From a virus: a stretch of 24,642 bases of DNA. The notes beneath the pieces were generated by a model. That model saw only the letters and a list, made by a program, of their open reading frames with translations. It did not search any database and was not told the DNA's origin. Positions 693-13,079 of this stretch are shown here, piece by piece. A program made the translations under genes and the position numbers. The stretch is taken from IMG/VR virus record IMGVR_UViG_3300005265_000317, positions 1 to 24,642 of that record; one strand, 5' to 3'. How positions within the stretch are numbered: position 1 is the first letter of the stretch; the number at the start of each line of letters is the position of its first letter.

Positions 693-884
693 ATGAGAGA
701 CCCCAATAGAATCGAGCCAATACTTTCGTTGATAAGGGAGATCTGGTATAAATATCCAGATCTCCGTTTAACTCAATTGATTATGAATTCTTTAAAAATG
801 AATCAAGATCCTTATTATGTTGAGGATGAAATTTTAGAAAAAGCATTAAAAAAATATATAAAACTAATGGAGGGAAAACATTGA
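693..884 (+). CDS. Small conserved protein, DUF1040/YihD-like
   Basis: This 63-aa protein begins MRDPNRI and contains the pattern RI-x3-L-x-LI-x3-W-x2-YPDLRL-x-QLI followed by DPYYVEDEIL. The same order of features (RLNEVIELLQPAW, PDFNLLQFL, then an acidic segment) is what I recall for E. coli YihD (DUF1040), and short MRDP-starting proteins of this kind occur in bacteria and phages. No catalytic motif is visible and the function is unknown. It starts two bases after the HNH gene stop, with GAGG upstream. Its stop overlaps the TTG start of the polymerase gene, so the two are probably translationally coupled. A perfect 10-bp inverted repeat lies inside the gene at 737-765. The gene call is reliable; the family assignment is from memory of the motif and moderate. 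Confidence 0.7.
   Translation: MRDPNRIEPILSLIREIWYKYPDLRLTQLIMNSLKMNQDPYYVEDEILEKALKKYIKLMEGKH
737..765. repeat. Perfect 10-bp inverted repeat with a 9-nt AT loop
   Basis: Arms GGAGATCTGG (737-746) and CCAGATCTCC (756-765) are exact reverse complements around the loop TATAAATAT. The repeat lies inside the 63-aa gene, in the stretch coding for REIWYKYPDLR, about 115 bases before the polymerase gene start. As RNA it would be a stable hairpin; as DNA it is a palindromic site. No T-run follows, so a simple terminator is unlikely. It may also be a chance result of coding constraint. Confidence 0.6.
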
Positions 885-3877
885 TCATAAATCCAACATT
901 TAAAATACAAAGTGAAAATAACATTTTCACAATCAGAGAAAAAGAATATAAACAGATTTTACCCATTGTTTCCCAAATAATTAAACCAGTTGAGGATATA
1001 GGATTTCAAATAGTTGAATTAGCATTAAAAGACTCTAGATTTTCATCTGGAGAATTATCAAGAACGGTTAAACAAACTTTGGTTATAAGACTGCAAAAAG
1101 GAAACTCAAATATAGATTTGAGTATATTCCTTCCAAAATTAATTGATAAAAATTATATTGCAATCAACGGAAGGAGGAAAATACCTTTATTTCAACTGTT
1201 CGATATACCAATAGTTACTCGGGGAGAATCGATAAAATTAAGAACCAACGTTGCAACATTGATGGCATATAGAGACAGAGAAGCACCTCATGCAAAAGTT
1301 AGCTTCTTAGGAAAAAAGGTTCCATTATCATTAATGATGTTAGCATATTATGGACCGGTAGCTTTAGACTCCAGATATGATTTTGAACATTTAAAATACG
1401 AATCCAATAGTGACATATTATATGAAAATTTGATGGAAGACTTAGTTTTAACAATAGAAGACTCTAAAGGTTACACTCAAGATGATTACATACAAGAGTT
1501 GGGAAAATTATATTCAAGATATAATTCTAAATCGAAAGGTGAAGATATTATTTATGCCTTAGAAGTAATTCCAAAAATAGATGTTATGACATCGATGTTT
1601 TTAACAACTAATTCTTTAATTGAAGAATTATTATTGGCAATTCAAACTCAATATGTAGATGATACTCTTTTCACAAATAAAAGAGTTCGATGTTTTGAAT
1701 ATGTTATTATATCAAAAATATCCAAGATTATATTTGACTTATGTTTTTCAAACAGAACTTCTAGACAACCAAAGTTTAATATAAATTCAAATCAGATATT
1801 AACTGAGTGTAACGTATCTGATATTGTACAATTTGATTTTTCAATCAATCCAATTGAGGAATTAACAAAATTATCACGAATTAGTCTCTTAGGGCCGGGT
1901 GGATTTAAAAGAGAAAATATTCCAAAACATTTAAGAGATATATGTCCATCTATGTTTGGAAGGATATGTCCAGTTGATACCCCCGATAGAGATAATTGTG
2001 GAGTCTTACAAAATTTAATTCCAAATGTTCCTCTTGATGATAATTTAAAATTTACATCTGAAACTTGTGAACACCAACCAATTTCTATACCCGTCTCTAT
2101 GGTTCCGTTTTGTGAACACGATGATCAAACCAGATTACAAATGGCGTCATCTCAAATGAGACAGTCAATTATGTTAAAGGAATTTGATAAACCATTAATT
2201 CAATCAGGTTGTGAAGGACTATATACAGATCAAACTCAATTTTTAAAAAGAGCCAAAAAAGATGGAGAAGTTATTCATATAGACGATAAATTTATTATTG
2301 TAGTTTATAATAACAACGATGTTGATATGTTTAACATTGAATATCGTAAAATATATGTTGAACATTTAGATTTTATGAATGTTTATGTAAAACCTGGAGA
2401 TAAATTTAAAGCGGGTGATATTCTTGCAGAAAGTAATTACTGTAAAAATGGTGAGATAACATTTGGTAAAAATCTATTAACAGGAGTAATGGTATATTAT
2501 GGAAATAATTATGAGGATGGTATAGTTATTTCTGATAGACTTGTTAAGGAAAATCAACTTACATCTATCCATTATAAAGATTTATCATTTACTTTACCAC
2601 CATATAAAGTACTATTATCATTAGATGAAAATGAATATAAACCACTTCCGCTTCAATATGAAACTATAGAAAAAGGTTTGCCGTATGCAAGAATACAAGG
2701 ATTGTCAATTGATGATTTATATTCTCAATTTGGAGAAGAGTCATATCTTCAAGCAGAAAAGAAATATATAATTTCAGAAGTCAAAATATATGCAAACAAT
2801 TGGAATTCTGATATTCTTGAATTTGATGATTGGGTTTTGAAAACTATTGAATCTCAAAAAGAAAAAGAAAATGATCTCAAGAAAATTATATATAGTAAAT
2901 TTTCTAAAGATCAAGCAAATCAAATTATAAAGGAACATGGGTTAGATCTATATTCATTTGTTGGTAAATATAAAAACAAAAGAGAAAAGATAAATGGTAT
3001 CCATATTAAAATAGCAGGTATTTATCAAAGACAAATTCAAGTTGGAGATAAGGTTGCTAATCGTCATGGGAATAAGGGTATTATTTCAAGAATAGTTCCT
3101 CATGAGAAAATGCCCAAATTGGAAGATGGTCGTCATCTTGATATATGTATTAATCCTCTTGGTATTATCTCTAGAATGAATATTGGGCAATTATATGAAC
3201 TTCATTTAACAATGTCGTTTTATGATTTGATTAATCAACTCATGGATATGTTATCAAATAGTACTCAAGAAGAGGTTAGAGAACATTTATTAGGATTCAT
3301 TAAAATCATTGATAAGACAAAAGATAACTGGTATTCAAAACAATTTATTGATGAATTACCAAAAACTATTACTTCTGATTTTATATCAAATTTAACACTT
3401 ATACAACCTCCATTTGAATCTTGTAAAATGGAAGATATGAAAAAAGCATTAGAATATACAGGAACTACCTTCAAGCAAAAATTATATGATCCAGTATCCA
3501 AGCAAGAAATACAAAATGAAATTGCTTGCGGTTACATCTATTTCTTAAGAATGGTTCATATTGCAGAAGAGAAATTAGCCGCCAGAGGAATTGGCAGTTA
3601 TGCAAAACGAACCCTTCAACCACTGGGAGGAAGAAAAAATAAAGGTGGTCAGAGATGTGGTGAAATGGAAACTGCCTGTATTATTGGTCATGATGCTCCA
3701 TGTAATTTGTTTGAGTTTTTAACCACAAAGTCTGATTGCATTGATCTTAAAAATAGATATATTAGAGATTTTATTGATTCAGATTTAGTCGACGAAAGTA
3801 AAGAATTAGATACGACTCCTGAATCAGTAAAATTATTAAATTCATATTTAACCGTGTTAGGAGTTGAACACAAATGA
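881..3877 (+). CDS. rpoB: Single-chain DNA-directed RNA polymerase beta subunit homologue (phage)
   Basis: This is a homologue of bacterial RpoB, which with beta' forms the catalytic cleft of multisubunit RNA polymerase. Conserved blocks appear in the RpoB order: SRISLLGPGG (332-341), RDICPSMFGRICPVDTPD (352-369), PFCEHDDQTR to MRQS (409-429), NYEDGIVIS (543-551), GDKVANRHGNKG (722-733), NPLGIISRMNIGQ (758-770) and LQPLGGRKNKGGQRCGEMET (about 912-931). K724 and K732 match E. coli K1065 and K1073, and R765 matches R1106 with the same 33-residue spacing. At 998 aa it is shorter than E. coli (1342) or B. subtilis (1193) beta, mainly for want of lineage inserts and part of the lobe. The start is TTG at 881, overlapping the upstream TGA, with GGAGGG about six bases before; no ATG fits. 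No beta', alpha or sigma gene lies in this window. In phiKZ- and PBS1/AR9-type phages beta is split over several genes, so one intact chain is notable. Confidence 0.95.
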   Translation: MIINPTFKIQSENNIFTIREKEYKQILPIVSQIIKPVEDIGFQIVELALKDSRFSSGELSRTVKQTLVIRLQKGNSNIDLSIFLPKLIDKNYIAINGRRKIPLFQLFDIPIVTRGESIKLRTNVATLMAYRDREAPHAKVSFLGKKVPLSLMMLAYYGPVALDSRYDFEHLKYESNSDILYENLMEDLVLTIEDSKGYTQDDYIQELGKLYSRYNSKSKGEDIIYALEVIPKIDVMTSMFLTTNSLIEELLLAIQTQYVDDTLFTNKRVRCFEYVIISKISKIIFDLCFSNRTSRQPKFNINSNQILTECNVSDIVQFDFSINPIEELTKLSRISLLGPGGFKRENIPKHLRDICPSMFGRICPVDTPDRDNCGVLQNLIPNVPLDDNLKFTSETCEHQPISIPVSMVPFCEHDDQTRLQMASSQMRQSIMLKEFDKPLIQSGCEGLYTDQTQFLKRAKKDGEVIHIDDKFIIVVYNNNDVDMFNIEYRKIYVEHLDFMNVYVKPGDKFKAGDILAESNYCKNGEITFGKNLLTGVMVYYGNNYEDGIVISDRLVKENQLTSIHYKDLSFTLPPYKVLLSLDENEYKPLPLQYETIEKGLPYARIQGLSIDDLYSQFGEESYLQAEKKYIISEVKIYANNWNSDILEFDDWVLKTIESQKEKENDLKKIIYSKFSKDQANQIIKEHGLDLYSFVGKYKNKREKINGIHIKIAGIYQRQIQVGDKVANRHGNKGIISRIVPHEKMPKLEDGRHLDICINPLGIISRMNIGQLYELHLTMSFYDLINQLMDMLSNSTQEEVREHLLGFIKIIDKTKDNWYSKQFIDELPKTITSDFISNLTLIQPPFESCKMEDMKKALEYTGTTFKQKLYDPVSKQEIQNEIACGYIYFLRMVHIAEEKLAARGIGSYAKRTLQPLGGRKNKGGQRCGEMETACIIGHDAPCNLFEFLTTKSDCIDLKNRYIRDFIDSDLVDESKELDTTPESVKLLNSYLTVLGVEHK

Positions 3878-4050: not shown

Positions 4051-4902
4051 ATGAATAAAGAATGTTTACCTGATATACAATGCTCAGTACCGGATATTCA
4101 AATTCCAATAATGCAAGTAGGAGTTGAGAATGTTGAAGTTCCATTTAGACTCGAATCTAAATATGGTGGATTCCATCAACTGACTGCAAACGTTGCTTTG
4201 ACAACAAATCTTGATAAAGCTACCAAAGGTATTTCAATGTCTCGACTTCTGCTAACATTAAAACCATATTTAGAATTACCATTAAAAAGTGCTTTAATAA
4301 AAATTATACTTGAGGATTTGATAAAAAATCTTGAAACGACTAAGGCAACTATGAAGTTTGAATTTCGGATGCCTATTACAAGAAAATCAATTATATCTGA
4401 TAATGAATTTCCAATTTATTATAAATGTAAATTTGAAATGACTAGACAACTTGACAGGACATCTGATTTAACATGGTTCTATCAAGGAGTTAAGATTCAG
4501 TATGCGTCCTATTGTCCTTGCTCTGCTGAACTCTGCGGGGCGTTAGATGAAAAGGGATATCCTCATAACCAAAGATCATTTGCTGATGTATTAGTTGAAG
4601 TTGTGAATAATCATTATGTCTGGTTGGAAGATATAATTGAAACAGTTGAATCACAAATTAAAACTCTACCATATCCCGTAATTAAAAGAATTGATGAGCA
4701 GGAGATTGCCAGAGTAGCAGCACAAAATCCAATGTTTGTTGAAGATGCAATTAGAAAAATATCTAAAGCATTGGATGACCGAGATGATATTTATGACTGG
4801 ATTGTGAAGTGTGTTCATGAAGAATCAATCCACACATCTGAAGCAATTGCAATTAATTGGAAGGGAATGACTAACGGGTTCGATGGGAGGCGGTTTATAT
4901 GA
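4051..4902 (+). CDS. folE2: GTP cyclohydrolase FolE2 (GCYH-IB) homologue
   Basis: FolE2 converts GTP to 7,8-dihydroneopterin triphosphate, the entry step for folate and for queuosine/7-deazaguanine bases, and is the zinc-independent alternative to FolE. At 283 aa it has family length. The N-terminus shows LPDIQ and VGVENVEVP (24-31). The signature block holds C155-P-C157-S followed by GYPHNQRS, with H172 and NQRS (173-176), matching the family CPCS and AHNQRS metal and active-site motifs. The family block KGTHMSR is altered to KGISMSR (59-65), losing the Thr-His pair. A strong SD (AGGGGGAG) precedes ATG 4051. The stop overlaps the ATG of the next gene (ATGA). In phages such enzymes usually feed DNA or tRNA 7-deazaguanine modification, but no QueC, QueD, QueE or DpdA gene is in this window, so the pathway is inferred only. 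Confidence 0.85.
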   Translation: MNKECLPDIQCSVPDIQIPIMQVGVENVEVPFRLESKYGGFHQLTANVALTTNLDKATKGISMSRLLLTLKPYLELPLKSALIKIILEDLIKNLETTKATMKFEFRMPITRKSIISDNEFPIYYKCKFEMTRQLDRTSDLTWFYQGVKIQYASYCPCSAELCGALDEKGYPHNQRSFADVLVEVVNNHYVWLEDIIETVESQIKTLPYPVIKRIDEQEIARVAAQNPMFVEDAIRKISKALDDRDDIYDWIVKCVHEESIHTSEAIAINWKGMTNGFDGRRFI

Positions 4903-5666
4903 AACATATTGATGTATCTGTTTCATATGGTTTTGGAAGTGATAACAGATACAATGATACTGGTGGAATTCCTCAGAGCATACAATTAGCATTATACAAA
5001 TACCAATTATATCAAGAACAGAAGAAACAAATATTTAAGGCAGTCAGTAGAAGCCATACTCATGTTAAAGTTGTACACATGCCCCTGGATTTTTTAAGAC
5101 ATGATCCATGGTCTATGTTTGAAATGATAAAAGAGTTGAGAAATGAAGTTGGATGTTGTACATATGTAGTCCATCCCAATAAAGGAATTGGTTCATTCTT
5201 AACACATTTCTTAGATCAACATATGATGGATGTTACTTTATGTATTGAAAACTTTCCATGGAGAAAGAAAAAAGAGCTTCGAAACCCCTTGAAAATGATA
5301 GAATATATAGGATGGTTAAAAGAAGATTATGAGTATGTTGATAGACGTTTAAGGTTATGCATAGATACAAGCCATACAGATGATATATGGTTCGAGTATC
5401 AATTGATGTATTTTCTACTTCCTTATACTGATGTTATTCATCTATCAAATAGATCAGGAAAAAATCAACATCTTCCATTTAACTCAGCTAAGGGGGATTT
5501 AAATCTTGTTGGTTTTGTAAAGGATTTGAAGGGAAGATATGATTGGGGCGGAGATATTGTTCTTGAATATATGCCAGAGTGGAGTCATAAACTTTATCAA
5601 AATGTAGAATATATAAAGAGGTTACTTTATGGACCCAGTAGAAGAAATCCTAAACGTGCCATTTAA
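4899..5666 (+). CDS. TIM-barrel protein of the AP endonuclease 2/sugar isomerase superfamily
   Basis: This 255-aa protein has the order of metal-ligand motifs seen in endonuclease IV (Nfo)-like barrels: VVH (H60), VHP (H92), CIENF (E117), IDTSH (D156, H159), VIHLS (H181), NQH (N189, H191) and VLEY (E223). Against E. coli Nfo these correspond to H69, H109, E145, D179, H182, H216, D229, H231 and E261, with the usual D-x-H replaced by N-x-H. Members either repair abasic DNA or isomerise sugars and related substrates; the sequence alone does not choose between them. It overlaps folE2 by four bases and has GGGAGG just upstream, so the two products are probably made together. Overlap with the next gene is 38 nt. 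The fold call is firm; the substrate is unknown. Confidence 0.75.
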   Translation: MKHIDVSVSYGFGSDNRYNDTGGIPQSIQLALYKYQLYQEQKKQIFKAVSRSHTHVKVVHMPLDFLRHDPWSMFEMIKELRNEVGCCTYVVHPNKGIGSFLTHFLDQHMMDVTLCIENFPWRKKKELRNPLKMIEYIGWLKEDYEYVDRRLRLCIDTSHTDDIWFEYQLMYFLLPYTDVIHLSNRSGKNQHLPFNSAKGDLNLVGFVKDLKGRYDWGGDIVLEYMPEWSHKLYQNVEYIKRLLYGPSRRNPKRAI

Positions 5667-6225
5667 ACCATGGGAATATATGACTTATTCAACGCGCCGG
5701 TTTGTTATTCATCCCATCAATAATAGAAGAAATTGGTATAAAACAAGGAGTCATGACTATAGAGCAGTATTTGAAACTCTTGAAAATTATAATAAAACTA
5801 CATGGAAACTTGGTGATGTTGTAAAATTTGGTAAGGGTTATTATCTTAAAGCCATCGATTGGCAAGCTTGGTTTCTTAATGAGAAAGATTTTGATCAATA
5901 TCTTAAAAAACATAAAAGATATAATAAATCAATTCCAGCTTATGCCAGAAATCAATATGCGATAGTTTTAGCAAGGTATAAATGGACAAAATATAAAGGA
6001 TACATGACTTACATAGATTATGGTAGCTTCATTATGATGTTAACGGGAAGTAAAATAGGCCACATAAGAAAATATTATGTAGTTAATCCATATGAATTTA
6101 TAGGAGCATATCCATATGTTAAAATGCGTTATAATTTAAACCATGATCGATTATTTCATGGAGTTGAAAGGGTAAAAGATGTAACACATTTCTTAGAAAA
6201 TCTCGTGAGGAAAATTGCTATATGA
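5629..6225 (+). CDS. Unrecognised 198-aa basic/aromatic protein
   Basis: I do not recognise this family. The 198-aa product is rich in Tyr, Trp, Lys and Arg (for example RNQYAIVLARYKWTKYKGY in the middle), with no signal peptide, clear membrane segment or Cys/His cluster. The start at 5629 has AGAGG about seven bases upstream but overlaps the end of the TIM-barrel gene by 38 nt. A later in-frame ATG (residue 17, MTYSTRR) would remove the overlap but has a poorer SD. The last four bases overlap the start of the next gene, so it belongs to the folE2 operon. A high aromatic and basic content would suit nucleic-acid binding, but that is only an inference. Confidence 0.75.
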   Translation: MDPVEEILNVPFKPWEYMTYSTRRFVIHPINNRRNWYKTRSHDYRAVFETLENYNKTTWKLGDVVKFGKGYYLKAIDWQAWFLNEKDFDQYLKKHKRYNKSIPAYARNQYAIVLARYKWTKYKGYMTYIDYGSFIMMLTGSKIGHIRKYYVVNPYEFIGAYPYVKMRYNLNHDRLFHGVERVKDVTHFLENLVRKIAI

Positions 6226-6575
6226 AAATTGAAGATGTTATTGAAATCTATAAAAAAGAAAGATATTACGAAACCTGTGTGTTTGGTAATTATGAACAAA
6301 TCCAAGCTTTAAACTTTGCTAGCTTTCTTCTATTTTTAAAGAAATATATAGACAAAGCATTAAAGGCATACGCGGGAAAATGGGATACTGAGTTACCTCC
6401 GTGGTTATTAACAACCACAGAATTTGAGCAGGATGGAACTGCACCAGTTAAAGCATATGAAGAAGTAGTAAAAATTATGGCACTAGCAGGTGCTACATTA
6501 GAAACTTATACATCTATAAATCCCGAAAAATGGCGCGAAGATTTAGAAGCGCACATGAGTAAATGGAAAGATTAA
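6222..6575 (+). CDS. Unrecognised 117-aa predicted all-helical protein
   Basis: This 117-aa product appears helical throughout, with a conserved-looking core: LNFASFLLFLKKYIDKALKA, then LPPWL, then a helix containing KAYEEVVKIMALAGATLETY. The start overlaps the upstream stop (ATGA type) with GAGG before it. The pattern of short helices carrying paired acidic residues is loosely like small MazG-type NTP pyrophosphohydrolases, but the typical ExxE and ExxD pairs are not clearly present, so I do not assign it. It is the last gene of the folE2-containing run and is followed 21 nt later by a gene with its own strong SD. Confidence 0.75.
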   Translation: MKIEDVIEIYKKERYYETCVFGNYEQIQALNFASFLLFLKKYIDKALKAYAGKWDTELPPWLLTTTEFEQDGTAPVKAYEEVVKIMALAGATLETYTSINPEKWREDLEAHMSKWKD

Positions 6576-6596: not shown

Positions 6597-7352
6597 ATGG
6601 AACAAGTAGAAACAAATTTATCAGACATGATTAGACAAGATGAACCACCGGTATTTGAAACATCGAATTTGGACTTACCGGAAGATACAACAGAAGTAAT
6701 ATCAGAGGATACAACAGAAGCTGTAGAAGAAGCCCAAGCGGAAGCAATTTCAATTACTCCTCTTAATACATGGTTTGAATCTAATGCGGAATCATTTCAA
6801 AATGTCAATCGAGTTCAGGTTGAAATTCGTGGAGTTGATCCCTCAAAAACTTTGATAATGGCAGTACTTGATGATCAAGGTGAAGTTAACGGCCATCCAA
6901 GCAGAGACCTTCAACTTTTCAAAAATGCTGACATTCAGCCGGTATTGAATATTCCTGCAGTTGATATGCAGATTTATAACAATGGATTCAGAATTATTTC
7001 ATCTTATGATGATAACATTATTATTAAATCTTACGGTGTAAGAACAGGGCTTATCTGTGTATTCTGTAACAACATTGCCGGAAAAGCGATTCCTTATAAG
7101 GTCATAAAAGCAAAGAAAAAAGATGAAGTTGTTGAAGTTTCTCGATTAGATGCAGCAGCAGTTGCCATCAAACTATCTCAAGATGCTGACCTGGAAGCAT
7201 TACAATTACTTTATAAACAAAGTAGTAAAGTAATTGAAGATATGACTACAAATCAAACAGTGGTTGATTGGTTATTAGAACGCCAGAACGAAGTAACGGA
7301 TATCAACCATCATCTACAAATTGATAATGTTATTATAAACATTCTGTCATAA
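6597..7352 (+). CDS. Unknown 251-aa protein with acidic N-terminal tail
   Basis: A strong SD (AAAGGAG) precedes the ATG at 6597. The first 50 or so residues are acidic and low-complexity, with a short tandem repeat EDTTEVIS/EDTTEAVE encoded by repeated GATACAACAGAAG units (about 6680-6720). From residue about 55 the protein becomes globular, with alternating beta-like stretches (RVQVEIRGV, TLIMAVLDD, NIIIKSYGV, LICVFCNN) and a helical C-terminal third (DADLEALQLLYKQSSKVIED). I recognise no domain. An acidic disordered tail on a beta-rich body is common in phage virion or DNA-mimic-like proteins, but there is no direct evidence for either. The gene ends just before a structured intergenic element. 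Confidence 0.8.
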   Translation: MEQVETNLSDMIRQDEPPVFETSNLDLPEDTTEVISEDTTEAVEEAQAEAISITPLNTWFESNAESFQNVNRVQVEIRGVDPSKTLIMAVLDDQGEVNGHPSRDLQLFKNADIQPVLNIPAVDMQIYNNGFRIISSYDDNIIIKSYGVRTGLICVFCNNIAGKAIPYKVIKAKKKDEVVEVSRLDAAAVAIKLSQDADLEALQLLYKQSSKVIEDMTTNQTVVDWLLERQNEVTDINHHLQIDNVIINILS

Positions 7353-7439: not shown

Positions 7440-8171
7440 ATGAAAATAAATCCAAATTTAAAATTAGTGTTAAAAGATTTATATTTATATGATATTGAAG
7501 CATGTCATTATAATATAGTGAAAAAAATGGGATTGGATGTTTCCAATTTGGATGAGAATGATAAGCTCGATAGAAATATTGAAATTGGTAAAATGATGAG
7601 AAAGAATCCTAGATTAACATCAGTTATAAGAAATACAACTCGTTCTATTATTGATGAATACATAAGAAGAAATGATATTAAAGATGATGAAATTGTTATT
7701 AGACAATATGATGGTATGATACTGACCAGGGGTTTACAAGAAACTAATGTTGGACAGCTTCCTTTAAATCGTAGAAGATTTTATCAAGTCTTTATTGCTT
7801 CTATTGATAGATCAAAATATATATCATTGGATAGTGCGGAAAAAACTTCCATTAAAGGAATACCATTTAGATATCCTCATATAGACGCTGTTTATCAAAA
7901 AATATGTAAGTTAAATTTTGGAAAGAAGGGTGCTATATTCAGAGGATTGCAAAATATAAAAGATGCTTTCTTGAACTCAAATGATTCTAAATTATTCGGA
8001 GTTCCTTTAAAAAACGGGAAATTTAACATCTTTCTTAAACGATATGGAGAAATGCAGGTATCTGAACAAACATTAAAAATCATGGATACAGATGATATTG
8101 ATAAGAAAAGATATTTTGATTTCTACATTATACCGTTCACTAAAAGTATAACATATGAATTTGTGAGGTAA
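7440..8171 (+). CDS. Unknown 243-aa protein with faint polymerase-palm-like motifs
   Basis: The function is not established. Three blocks stand out: YLYDIEACHYNI (15-26), DRNIEIGKMMRKNPRLTSVI (44-63), and EIVIRQYDGMIL (84-95), preceded by a long helix (RNTTRSIIDEYIRR). Their order and spacing loosely recall motifs A, B and C of DNA polymerase palms, with D18 and D91 as possible metal ligands. At 243 aa it is far too short for a full polymerase and lacks recognisable fingers or exonuclease domains. The C-terminal part (IKGIPFRYPHIDAVYQKI) is unplaced. The start is ATG 7440, just after structured element A, with a weak SD. The next gene begins three bases after its stop with a good SD (GAGG). 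An unrelated fold with chance similarity is quite possible. Confidence 0.75.
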   Translation: MKINPNLKLVLKDLYLYDIEACHYNIVKKMGLDVSNLDENDKLDRNIEIGKMMRKNPRLTSVIRNTTRSIIDEYIRRNDIKDDEIVIRQYDGMILTRGLQETNVGQLPLNRRRFYQVFIASIDRSKYISLDSAEKTSIKGIPFRYPHIDAVYQKICKLNFGKKGAIFRGLQNIKDAFLNSNDSKLFGVPLKNGKFNIFLKRYGEMQVSEQTLKIMDTDDIDKKRYFDFYIIPFTKSITYEFVR

Positions 8172-11417: not shown

Positions 11418-13079
11418 ATGGCAGCAATATCCGCAGCAAAAGCAATGATAGATACAGATGATTATGTTGCAGAGTATTTGCGATGTAAAAACAATTTTCA
11501 CTATTTCTCTAGTCATTACATTTATATCGAAATACCAGGAAAAGATATATTACTAAAACCTTATGGAAAACAATCAGAACTAATTGATGTGATTGAAAAT
11601 AAGAAATATGTTTTAGTTCTTAAAAGTAGACAGATTGGTATTTCAACAATCATTCAAGCATATGCTTGTTGGTTAACAGTATTTTATAATAACGCTGTAA
11701 TTGGGATTATTTCAAAGGATGGTGCTGAAGCTACTGACTTTGCAAGAATCATAAGAGGAATGTTTGAAAAACTTCCAGAATGGATGAAACCTGTTGGGGG
11801 TTCTCAGGGGCGTGGTTTATCAAAAAGGACTGAGCGTTCATTTATTTTAACAAACGGAAGCAAGGTTTATGCATCTCCTGTCAATCCTAATGCTCCTGAT
11901 AAAACTCTTCGTGGTAAGGCATTAACATTTTTGGTTATAGATGAGGGGGCATTTGTTACTCATATTGAATCAGCTTGGACTTCAATGGTTCCCGCTTTAT
12001 CAACAAATCAAATGCAAGCAAGAAAAGCTGGAATACCGTATGGTACTGTTGTACTTTCAACACCAAATAAAACTATTGGAATAGGCCAATGGTATTTTGA
12101 ACAATACATGCGAGCTATTTCAAGAGATGATATCTTTGAACCATTTGTAATTCATTGGAAAATGATTCCTGAATTAGCAAATGACCCATTTTGGTATAAA
12201 ACACAATGTAGGTTGTTTAATAATGATCCAAAGAAAATTGCTCAAGAATTAGAATTAAAGTTTTTGCCAGCGGAAGGATCATTCTTTGAGGCAGATACTG
12301 TTGAAAAGATGCAAGATTCATGTGTTACTCCAATAGAAATTCTTAAATTATTTAATGGAGAAATTTGGAAATTTCAAGAACCATTACCTCAACGAACTTA
12401 CATGATTGGCGTCGATACAGCACCAGAGCATGGTGCAGATAAATCTGCTATCACAGTATGGGATTATCAAACATTAGAGCAGGTGTGGGAATATCAAGGA
12501 AAGTGTAAAGTTCTTGATTTCTTAAAGATAGTACAACTTGCAGCTACTGCATATGCCAACGGACCAATAATTGTTGAATCAAATTCATATGGAAATCAAG
12601 TTGTTGAACATATAGGTCAAACAACTTTTTCACATAGATTATATAGAGAAAAAAGAGGACCACATACAATAGTTCCGGGTCTTTCAAATAATGCGAAGAC
12701 AAGACCTTTGATGATTGACGCTTTATATTCATATATGACTGAATTTCCTGAAGCTGTTAAATCTCAAAGACTTGCCCTCGAACTTACAGGACTTGTATCT
12801 AAATCAAGTGGGCGAGTTGAAGCTGATACAGGATGTCATGACGACTTAGCATTATCTGCAGCGTGTTGTATGTATGTAAGAAAATATGATCCTCCTTTAA
12901 TGCTTGAAACTAGTGGAGAAAGTTATTCAGGAACTATGGAAATTATGAAAGATATTGTTAGTTTTAATACAGATGTGCCTTTAGAAATCACCAATGAATC
13001 TATAATGAAATCTGTTAAGAAAAATTTGGACAAAAATCTTGGCTTTGTAGATATCATGGAGTTATATAACAAGGAATAA
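11418..13079 (+). CDS. terL: Terminase large subunit
   Basis: TerL powers DNA packaging into the procapsid and cuts the concatemer. The 553-aa protein has both domains. The ATPase has a Walker A-type KSRQIGIST (69-77) with the lysine at the front, as in many terminases including lambda gpA, a Walker B FLVIDEG (171-177; D175, E176), and a coupling motif STPN (214-217). The RNase H-fold nuclease has GVDTA (D333), VESNSYG (E387) and CHDDLALS (D475/D476). SD AAAGGAG precedes ATG 11418. It lies between hub and HEXXH genes, not beside an obvious small terminase, portal or capsid gene, so the head genes are elsewhere. No intein or frameshift is seen. Confidence 0.95.
   Translation: MAAISAAKAMIDTDDYVAEYLRCKNNFHYFSSHYIYIEIPGKDILLKPYGKQSELIDVIENKKYVLVLKSRQIGISTIIQAYACWLTVFYNNAVIGIISKDGAEATDFARIIRGMFEKLPEWMKPVGGSQGRGLSKRTERSFILTNGSKVYASPVNPNAPDKTLRGKALTFLVIDEGAFVTHIESAWTSMVPALSTNQMQARKAGIPYGTVVLSTPNKTIGIGQWYFEQYMRAISRDDIFEPFVIHWKMIPELANDPFWYKTQCRLFNNDPKKIAQELELKFLPAEGSFFEADTVEKMQDSCVTPIEILKLFNGEIWKFQEPLPQRTYMIGVDTAPEHGADKSAITVWDYQTLEQVWEYQGKCKVLDFLKIVQLAATAYANGPIIVESNSYGNQVVEHIGQTTFSHRLYREKRGPHTIVPGLSNNAKTRPLMIDALYSYMTEFPEAVKSQRLALELTGLVSKSSGRVEADTGCHDDLALSAACCMYVRKYDPPLMLETSGESYSGTMEIMKDIVSFNTDVPLEITNESIMKSVKKNLDKNLGFVDIMELYNKE

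Follow-up and report, generated by a model that had tools for sequence, protein, structure and literature searches.

A FolE2 gene beside the RNA polymerase gene of uncultured giant phages probably feeds a dispersed 7-deazaguanine DNA modification pathway

Introduction

Phage 7-deazaguanine systems, such as those of phages 9g, CAjan and Rosebush, hold a GTP cyclohydrolase, QueD, QueE, QueC and a DpdA-like enzyme in one genome (Hutinet et al., 2019; PMC6884629). In these systems, FolE together with QueD, QueE, QueC and DpdA leads to dPreQ0, and replacement of QueC by Gat-QueC leads to dG+; the same paper makes no mention of FolE2. In bacteria, FolE2 (GTP cyclohydrolase IB, with solved structures, e.g., 2r5r and 3d2o) is known as a zinc-independent replacement of FolE (PMC2770081).

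Here we analyse a 24.6-kb virus fragment (“the window,” i.e., the whole stretch of DNA under study) whose FolE2 resembles the bacterial enzymes in its full-length family match and active-site motifs, but differs from them in being phage-encoded, beside rpoB and in a preQ0 context. A comparison with related records places this gene in a group of phages that, unlike 9g, CAjan and Rosebush, uses FolE2 where those have FolE.

Results and Discussion

The FolE2 locus and its conservation

Scans of IMG/VR returned 102 FolE2-bearing stretches, 80 of which were kept (longest contig, 277 kb), and the related records examined reach 312 kb. The group consists of uncultured giant phages with a multisubunit RNA polymerase, and FolE2 was found in 95 related loci. 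In most relatives rpoB lies directly upstream of FolE2, which is near-constant in this position, and the widely kept order runs from rpoB and FolE2, through the barrel and 198-aa genes where present, to the genes for the 117-, 251-, 243- and 195-aa proteins (Table 1). No tRNA genes were found in the window.

Table 1. Features of the window, with the evidence or conservation on which each assignment draws.
Feature	Position	Strand	Evidence or conservation
RpoB homologue (phage RNA polymerase beta-subunit)	881..3877	+	Pfam RNA_pol_Rpb2_6 9.8e-55; NCBIfam rpoB 1e-109, under its cut-off
FolE2, GTP cyclohydrolase type IB	4051..4902	+	Pfam, NCBIfam, active-site motifs
ATGA stop/start overlap of FolE2 and barrel gene	4899..4902	+	Read directly from sequence
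Xylose-isomerase/endonuclease-IV-like TIM barrel, accessory gene	4899..5666	+	Weak Pfam match, fold model, invariant residues
198-aa protein, accessory, no Pfam match	5629..6225	+	In 36/66 relatives
117-aa protein, no Pfam match	6222..6575	+	Near-constant in group, 91 loci
251-aa protein, conserved downstream neighbour	6597..7352	+	Conservation across relatives
243-aa protein	7440..8171	+	Homologue marks same slot in G050
Terminase large subunit, marker of phage structural region	11418..13079	+	phrog_2 3.8e-37

By its sequence, the gene at 4051-4902 encodes a full-length FolE2, for which GTP cyclohydrolase activity is predicted. The 283-aa product covers the full Pfam GCHY-1 profile (E=2.5e-64) and clears the NCBIfam equivalog NF010200 “GTP cyclohydrolase FolE2” (223.7 bits, cut-off 215, residues 7-268), which confirms the FolE2 assignment of the original prediction. 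Its CPCS, HNQRS, NPMFVED and EESIH motifs align with solved FolE2 enzymes (2r5r, 8g6c), and the CPCS, HNQRS and ESIH motifs are invariant or nearly so across ten phage FolE2 sequences. A dN/dS of 0.10 relative to the nearest relative indicates purifying selection. Annotated phages gave three weak FolE2 matches, and PADLOC returned no match for FolE2 or the barrel protein. Two unannotated records named Staphylococcus phage (OR844998.1 and OR850219.1) carry a FolE2-like frame with 25% identity to that of the window.

preQ0 partner genes in long relatives

None of QueC, QueD, QueE or DpdA is present in the window, as the original prediction had remarked of the immediate surroundings of FolE2, but absences within a 24.6-kb fragment say little about the phage as a whole, and long relatives were found to carry QueC, QueD, QueE and a DpdA-like gene. 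QueD was detected in 24 of 25 long relatives, scoring above the TIGR03367 cut-off in the two records tested; in the records read it carries a CxxxHGHN motif and sits between topoisomerase-like and helicase genes, ~20-30 kb from FolE2. QueE (phrog_2076, E ~1e-30 to 1e-34) was found in the three largest of the 25 long records and, when sampling went by DpdA, in 30 of 32 loci. QueC is short, mostly missing the usual cysteine tail, and occurs in five of the six records >145 kb; its absence from 11 mostly short records is attributable to fragmentation, as the longest records do carry it. Three relatives (G012, G013 and G014) each encode QueD, QueE and QueC, and the FolE2 of the longest close relatives is 72-81% identical to that of the window. 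Unlike in phage 9g, where the genes are clustered, the pathway genes of long relatives are scattered over 130-160 kb: in G013, DpdA lies at 41 kb, QueE at 45 kb, QueC at 91 kb, QueD at 178 kb and FolE2 at 200 kb.

A radical SAM protein of ~345 aa near QueD initially seemed to be QueE, but QueE proper is a distinct protein of 223-240 aa. This ~345-aa protein (L133:5133-6194, equal to G013:185133-186197, and homologues near QueD) is conserved in long relatives and bears a weak resemblance to prokaryotic viperins (NCBIfam 7.5e-12, PADLOC 5.5e-13). A second conserved radical SAM/SPASM protein lies ~20 kb downstream of FolE2 (L135:2304-3326, or G013:222304-223329, and homologues), and one 207-kb record (G015, behind locus L089) holds sixteen radical SAM matches.

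A divergent DpdA-like protein beside QueE

Near QueE, relatives encode a protein of 465-472 aa with a partial match to phrog_887, annotated as queuine tRNA-ribosyltransferase and the family of the phage 9g DpdA. Its DSGG(F)Q, TGG and DS(S)G motifs show little or no variation across 17 sequences and are colinear with those of known phage DpdA in a remote HHalign match (E=1e-4, probability 57%). A negative result with the Pfam TGT model was discarded, since that model misses the phage 9g DpdA too. The profile of the protein matched no solved structure, and its AlphaFold2 model (pLDDT 58) was of insufficient quality for fold comparison and yielded no convincing TGT match. Unlike known phage DpdA systems, this protein had no counterpart in a tblastn search of 50,697 catalogued phage records. 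Given its motifs and the weak statistics, it is a candidate for a very divergent branch of DpdA transglycosylases.

The DpdA-like gene lies beside QueE and a family-B DNA polymerase gene, a neighbourhood kept in most of 32 loci, with a thymidylate synthase homologue nearby in 18 of them. The polymerase carries an N-terminal fused uracil-DNA-glycosylase domain (L160:653-3874 and homologues), and a Cpn10 (GroES-like) gene stands between QueE and DpdA in 26 of the 32 DpdA loci (e.g., L160:5187-5543, L126:4491-4817).

Exchange of FolE2 for FolE at one locus

A second, independent sampling started from DpdA rather than FolE2 and comprised 23 records, six of which carry FolE2, all of them >185 kb. 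Nine of the 23 exceed this length, and the three among them without FolE2 are G036, G041 and G050. The first of these terminates at rpoB. In the second (312 kb), only QueE and DpdA were detected, with no FolE, FolE2, QueD or QueC; some members of the group must use host or undetected homologues for missing steps. The third, a distant relative, carries a type IA FolE (PF01227, 5e-69) in the FolE2 slot, flanked by rpoB and by homologues of the 243-aa, 195-aa, 420-aa, TerL and 302-aa genes of the window. QueC and a glutamine amidotransferase share the gene run of this FolE, and QueD, QueE and DpdA are located elsewhere in the record. FolE and FolE2 are non-homologous by sequence and have the same known activity, and a search for FolE in 44 records turned up no case of both cyclohydrolases together, by the models used. 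This exchange at a single locus is the strongest evidence on the role of FolE2 here.

The QueE of G050 (L274:17229-18920; G050:157229-158923) is 564 aa long; a Hint (intein-like) domain splits it close to the N terminus, and its radical-SAM part continues from about residue 365.

A probable role in guanine modification of phage DNA

QueD, QueE, QueC and the DpdA-like gene accompany FolE2 in relatives and FolE occupies its slot in G050; FolE2 therefore most likely feeds preQ0 synthesis, which lends support to the suspicion, voiced in the original prediction, of a nucleobase modification. Taken as a whole, we consider it very probable that FolE2 performs the first step of a phage preQ0 pathway and that the DpdA-like enzyme puts a 7-deazaguanine into phage DNA, the barrel being optional. 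FolE2 would begin the route to preQ0 by turning GTP into 7,8-dihydroneopterin triphosphate, with QueD, QueE and QueC for the remaining steps; the DpdA-like transglycosylase would then replace guanine of the phage DNA with preQ0 or one of its derivatives, and the modified base would probably shield the DNA from host nucleases. The window phage itself presumably shares these partners and enzyme activities, the modified base and its benefit, with the genes laid out as in its relatives (i.e., FolE2 after rpoB, QueD between the topoisomerase-like and helicase genes, QueE and DpdA by the DNA polymerase, and QueC elsewhere). By analogy, the predicted base is dPreQ0 or a derivative in the FolE2-bearing group, and perhaps dG+ in G050, which adds an amidotransferase as in dG+ phages (PMC6884629).

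As phage 7-deazaguanine modification is already known, the system is new as a variant within the open-access literature: FolE2 in place of FolE, a dispersed layout and a divergent DpdA, in a large uncultured group.

An optional barrel protein in the slot behind FolE2

The 255-aa product of the gene behind FolE2 matches Pfam AP_endonuc_2 below the cut-off (7.7e-5) and finds no match in NCBIfam, to a curated EndoIV model or otherwise. Its AlphaFold2 model is confident (mean pLDDT 87, pTM 0.87) and matches xylose-isomerase/endonuclease-IV barrels at Z ~18-20, in agreement with the endonuclease IV/isomerase-type barrel originally proposed. Endonuclease IV chains score Z 18-19 (rmsd 3.2-4.2 A, ~223 residues aligned) and ketose epimerases Z 19-20; among viral folds, AP endonucleases come closest. 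Eight residues do not vary across 25 barrel sequences (His60, His92, Glu117, Asp156, His159, His181, His191 and Glu223), and by motif order they correspond to eight of the nine metal-ligand positions of E. coli Nfo, whose residues were confirmed in the Nfo sequence. HHalign supports the correspondence for Asp156, His159 and His181, the other five being matched by motif order, and the additional conserved histidines are more in keeping with a multi-metal site than with the single-metal Glu/Asp/His/Glu site of ketose 3-epimerases. The barrel shares with Nfo-like enzymes a fold and eight of nine ligand positions; unlike Nfo, it is shorter, shows no significant sequence match and has a variable residue where Nfo has Asp229, such that the full nine-ligand set is not matched. 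The gene evolves under purifying selection (dN/dS 0.06 relative to its nearest relative). No relatives were found among annotated phages, nor cellular ones in genome contigs by a pattern search that reaches fairly close relatives only.

These features make an endonuclease-IV-type enzyme of DNA repair or processing, unneeded by the base pathway and lodged in a variable slot behind FolE2, a plausible if tentative identity. The eight invariant putative ligands in Nfo-like order and the AP endonucleases among its best viral fold matches point this way, and the uracil-DNA-glycosylase domain fused to the phage polymerase would generate abasic sites. Yet the Asp229 counterpart is not conserved, matches to EndoIV sequences are not significant (E 0.3), ketose epimerase folds score equally well, and the fused glycosylase domain is also present in G014, which is without the barrel. 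A DNA-processing role is our leading guess, short of a confident one: the barrel would be an optional, metal-dependent member of the endonuclease IV/isomerase superfamily whose substrate might be abasic or otherwise altered DNA. An extended possibility, which we regard as unlikely, is that a new DpdA branch goes with a new 7-deazaguanine derivative, and that variable-slot enzymes (e.g., this EndoIV-like barrel) change the base still further or act on the DNA that contains it, in a phage-specific manner.

The coupling of the barrel to FolE2 raises another possibility, namely that the two form a two-enzyme unit making a new pterin- or deazaguanine-derived base. The ATGA overlap reported by the original prediction is confirmed by reading the sequence (barrel ATG at 4899, FolE2 stop TGA at 4900-4902), and FolE2 terminates in ATGA at 25 of the 66 dereplicated loci, more commonly where the barrel is present (17/25) than where it is not (8/41). 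Across 25 long records the barrel occurs at most once each and only in the FolE2 slot, and its divergence parallels that of FolE2 (Mantel r=0.70, p=0.0001), though adjacent genes that are inherited as a unit would be expected to diverge in parallel anyway. Against such a unit, the barrel is present in 25 of the 66 loci and absent from 41, including G012 and G014, which both carry FolE2, QueD, QueE, QueC and DpdA, and it is dispersed across the FolE2 tree, needing 18 changes vs. a shuffled-label mean of 20.3. We therefore judge the two-enzyme unit quite improbable: FolE2 is nearly always kept and the pair is not, and the barrel is most likely an optional accessory that the core pathway does not need.

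The same pattern weighs on the broader proposal of a four-gene pathway in which FolE2 and the barrel would act with both proteins at 5629-6575. Both of the latter are genuine conserved families with no Pfam matches, but the 198-aa family is accessory (36 of 66 dereplicated loci), sits further downstream in some relatives, and evolves faster (dN/dS 0.32 vs. 0.06-0.10 for FolE2 and the barrel). With the barrel and the 198-aa gene varying independently of FolE2, and with partners elsewhere in the genome, the four-gene pathway is unsupported.

Folate supply, i.e., FolE2 raising tetrahydrofolate for thymidylate synthesis in infection, shares the GTP cyclohydrolase step with the preQ0 pathway, finds some room in the thymidylate synthase homologue near QueE and DpdA, and accords with a metagenome study that places viral folE2 in folate metabolism (2026; PMC13288924), but DHFR, the folate gene searched for, was found in none of 25 records, QueD, QueE, QueC and DpdA co-occur with FolE2 in relatives, and the FolE that replaces FolE2 in G050 shares its gene run with QueC and an amidotransferase, making the folate module that was also originally proposed very unlikely.

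Implications

If FolE2 indeed opens a preQ0 pathway in these phages, then the known range of 7-deazaguanine DNA modification would come to include a large group of uncultured giant phages that encode an RNA polymerase themselves. FolE2 could stand in for FolE in its first step, at a single fixed locus, and its last step would involve a branch of DpdA not found among catalogued phage records. These patterns also caution against filing viral folE2 under folate metabolism—here, the gene most likely serves DNA modification.
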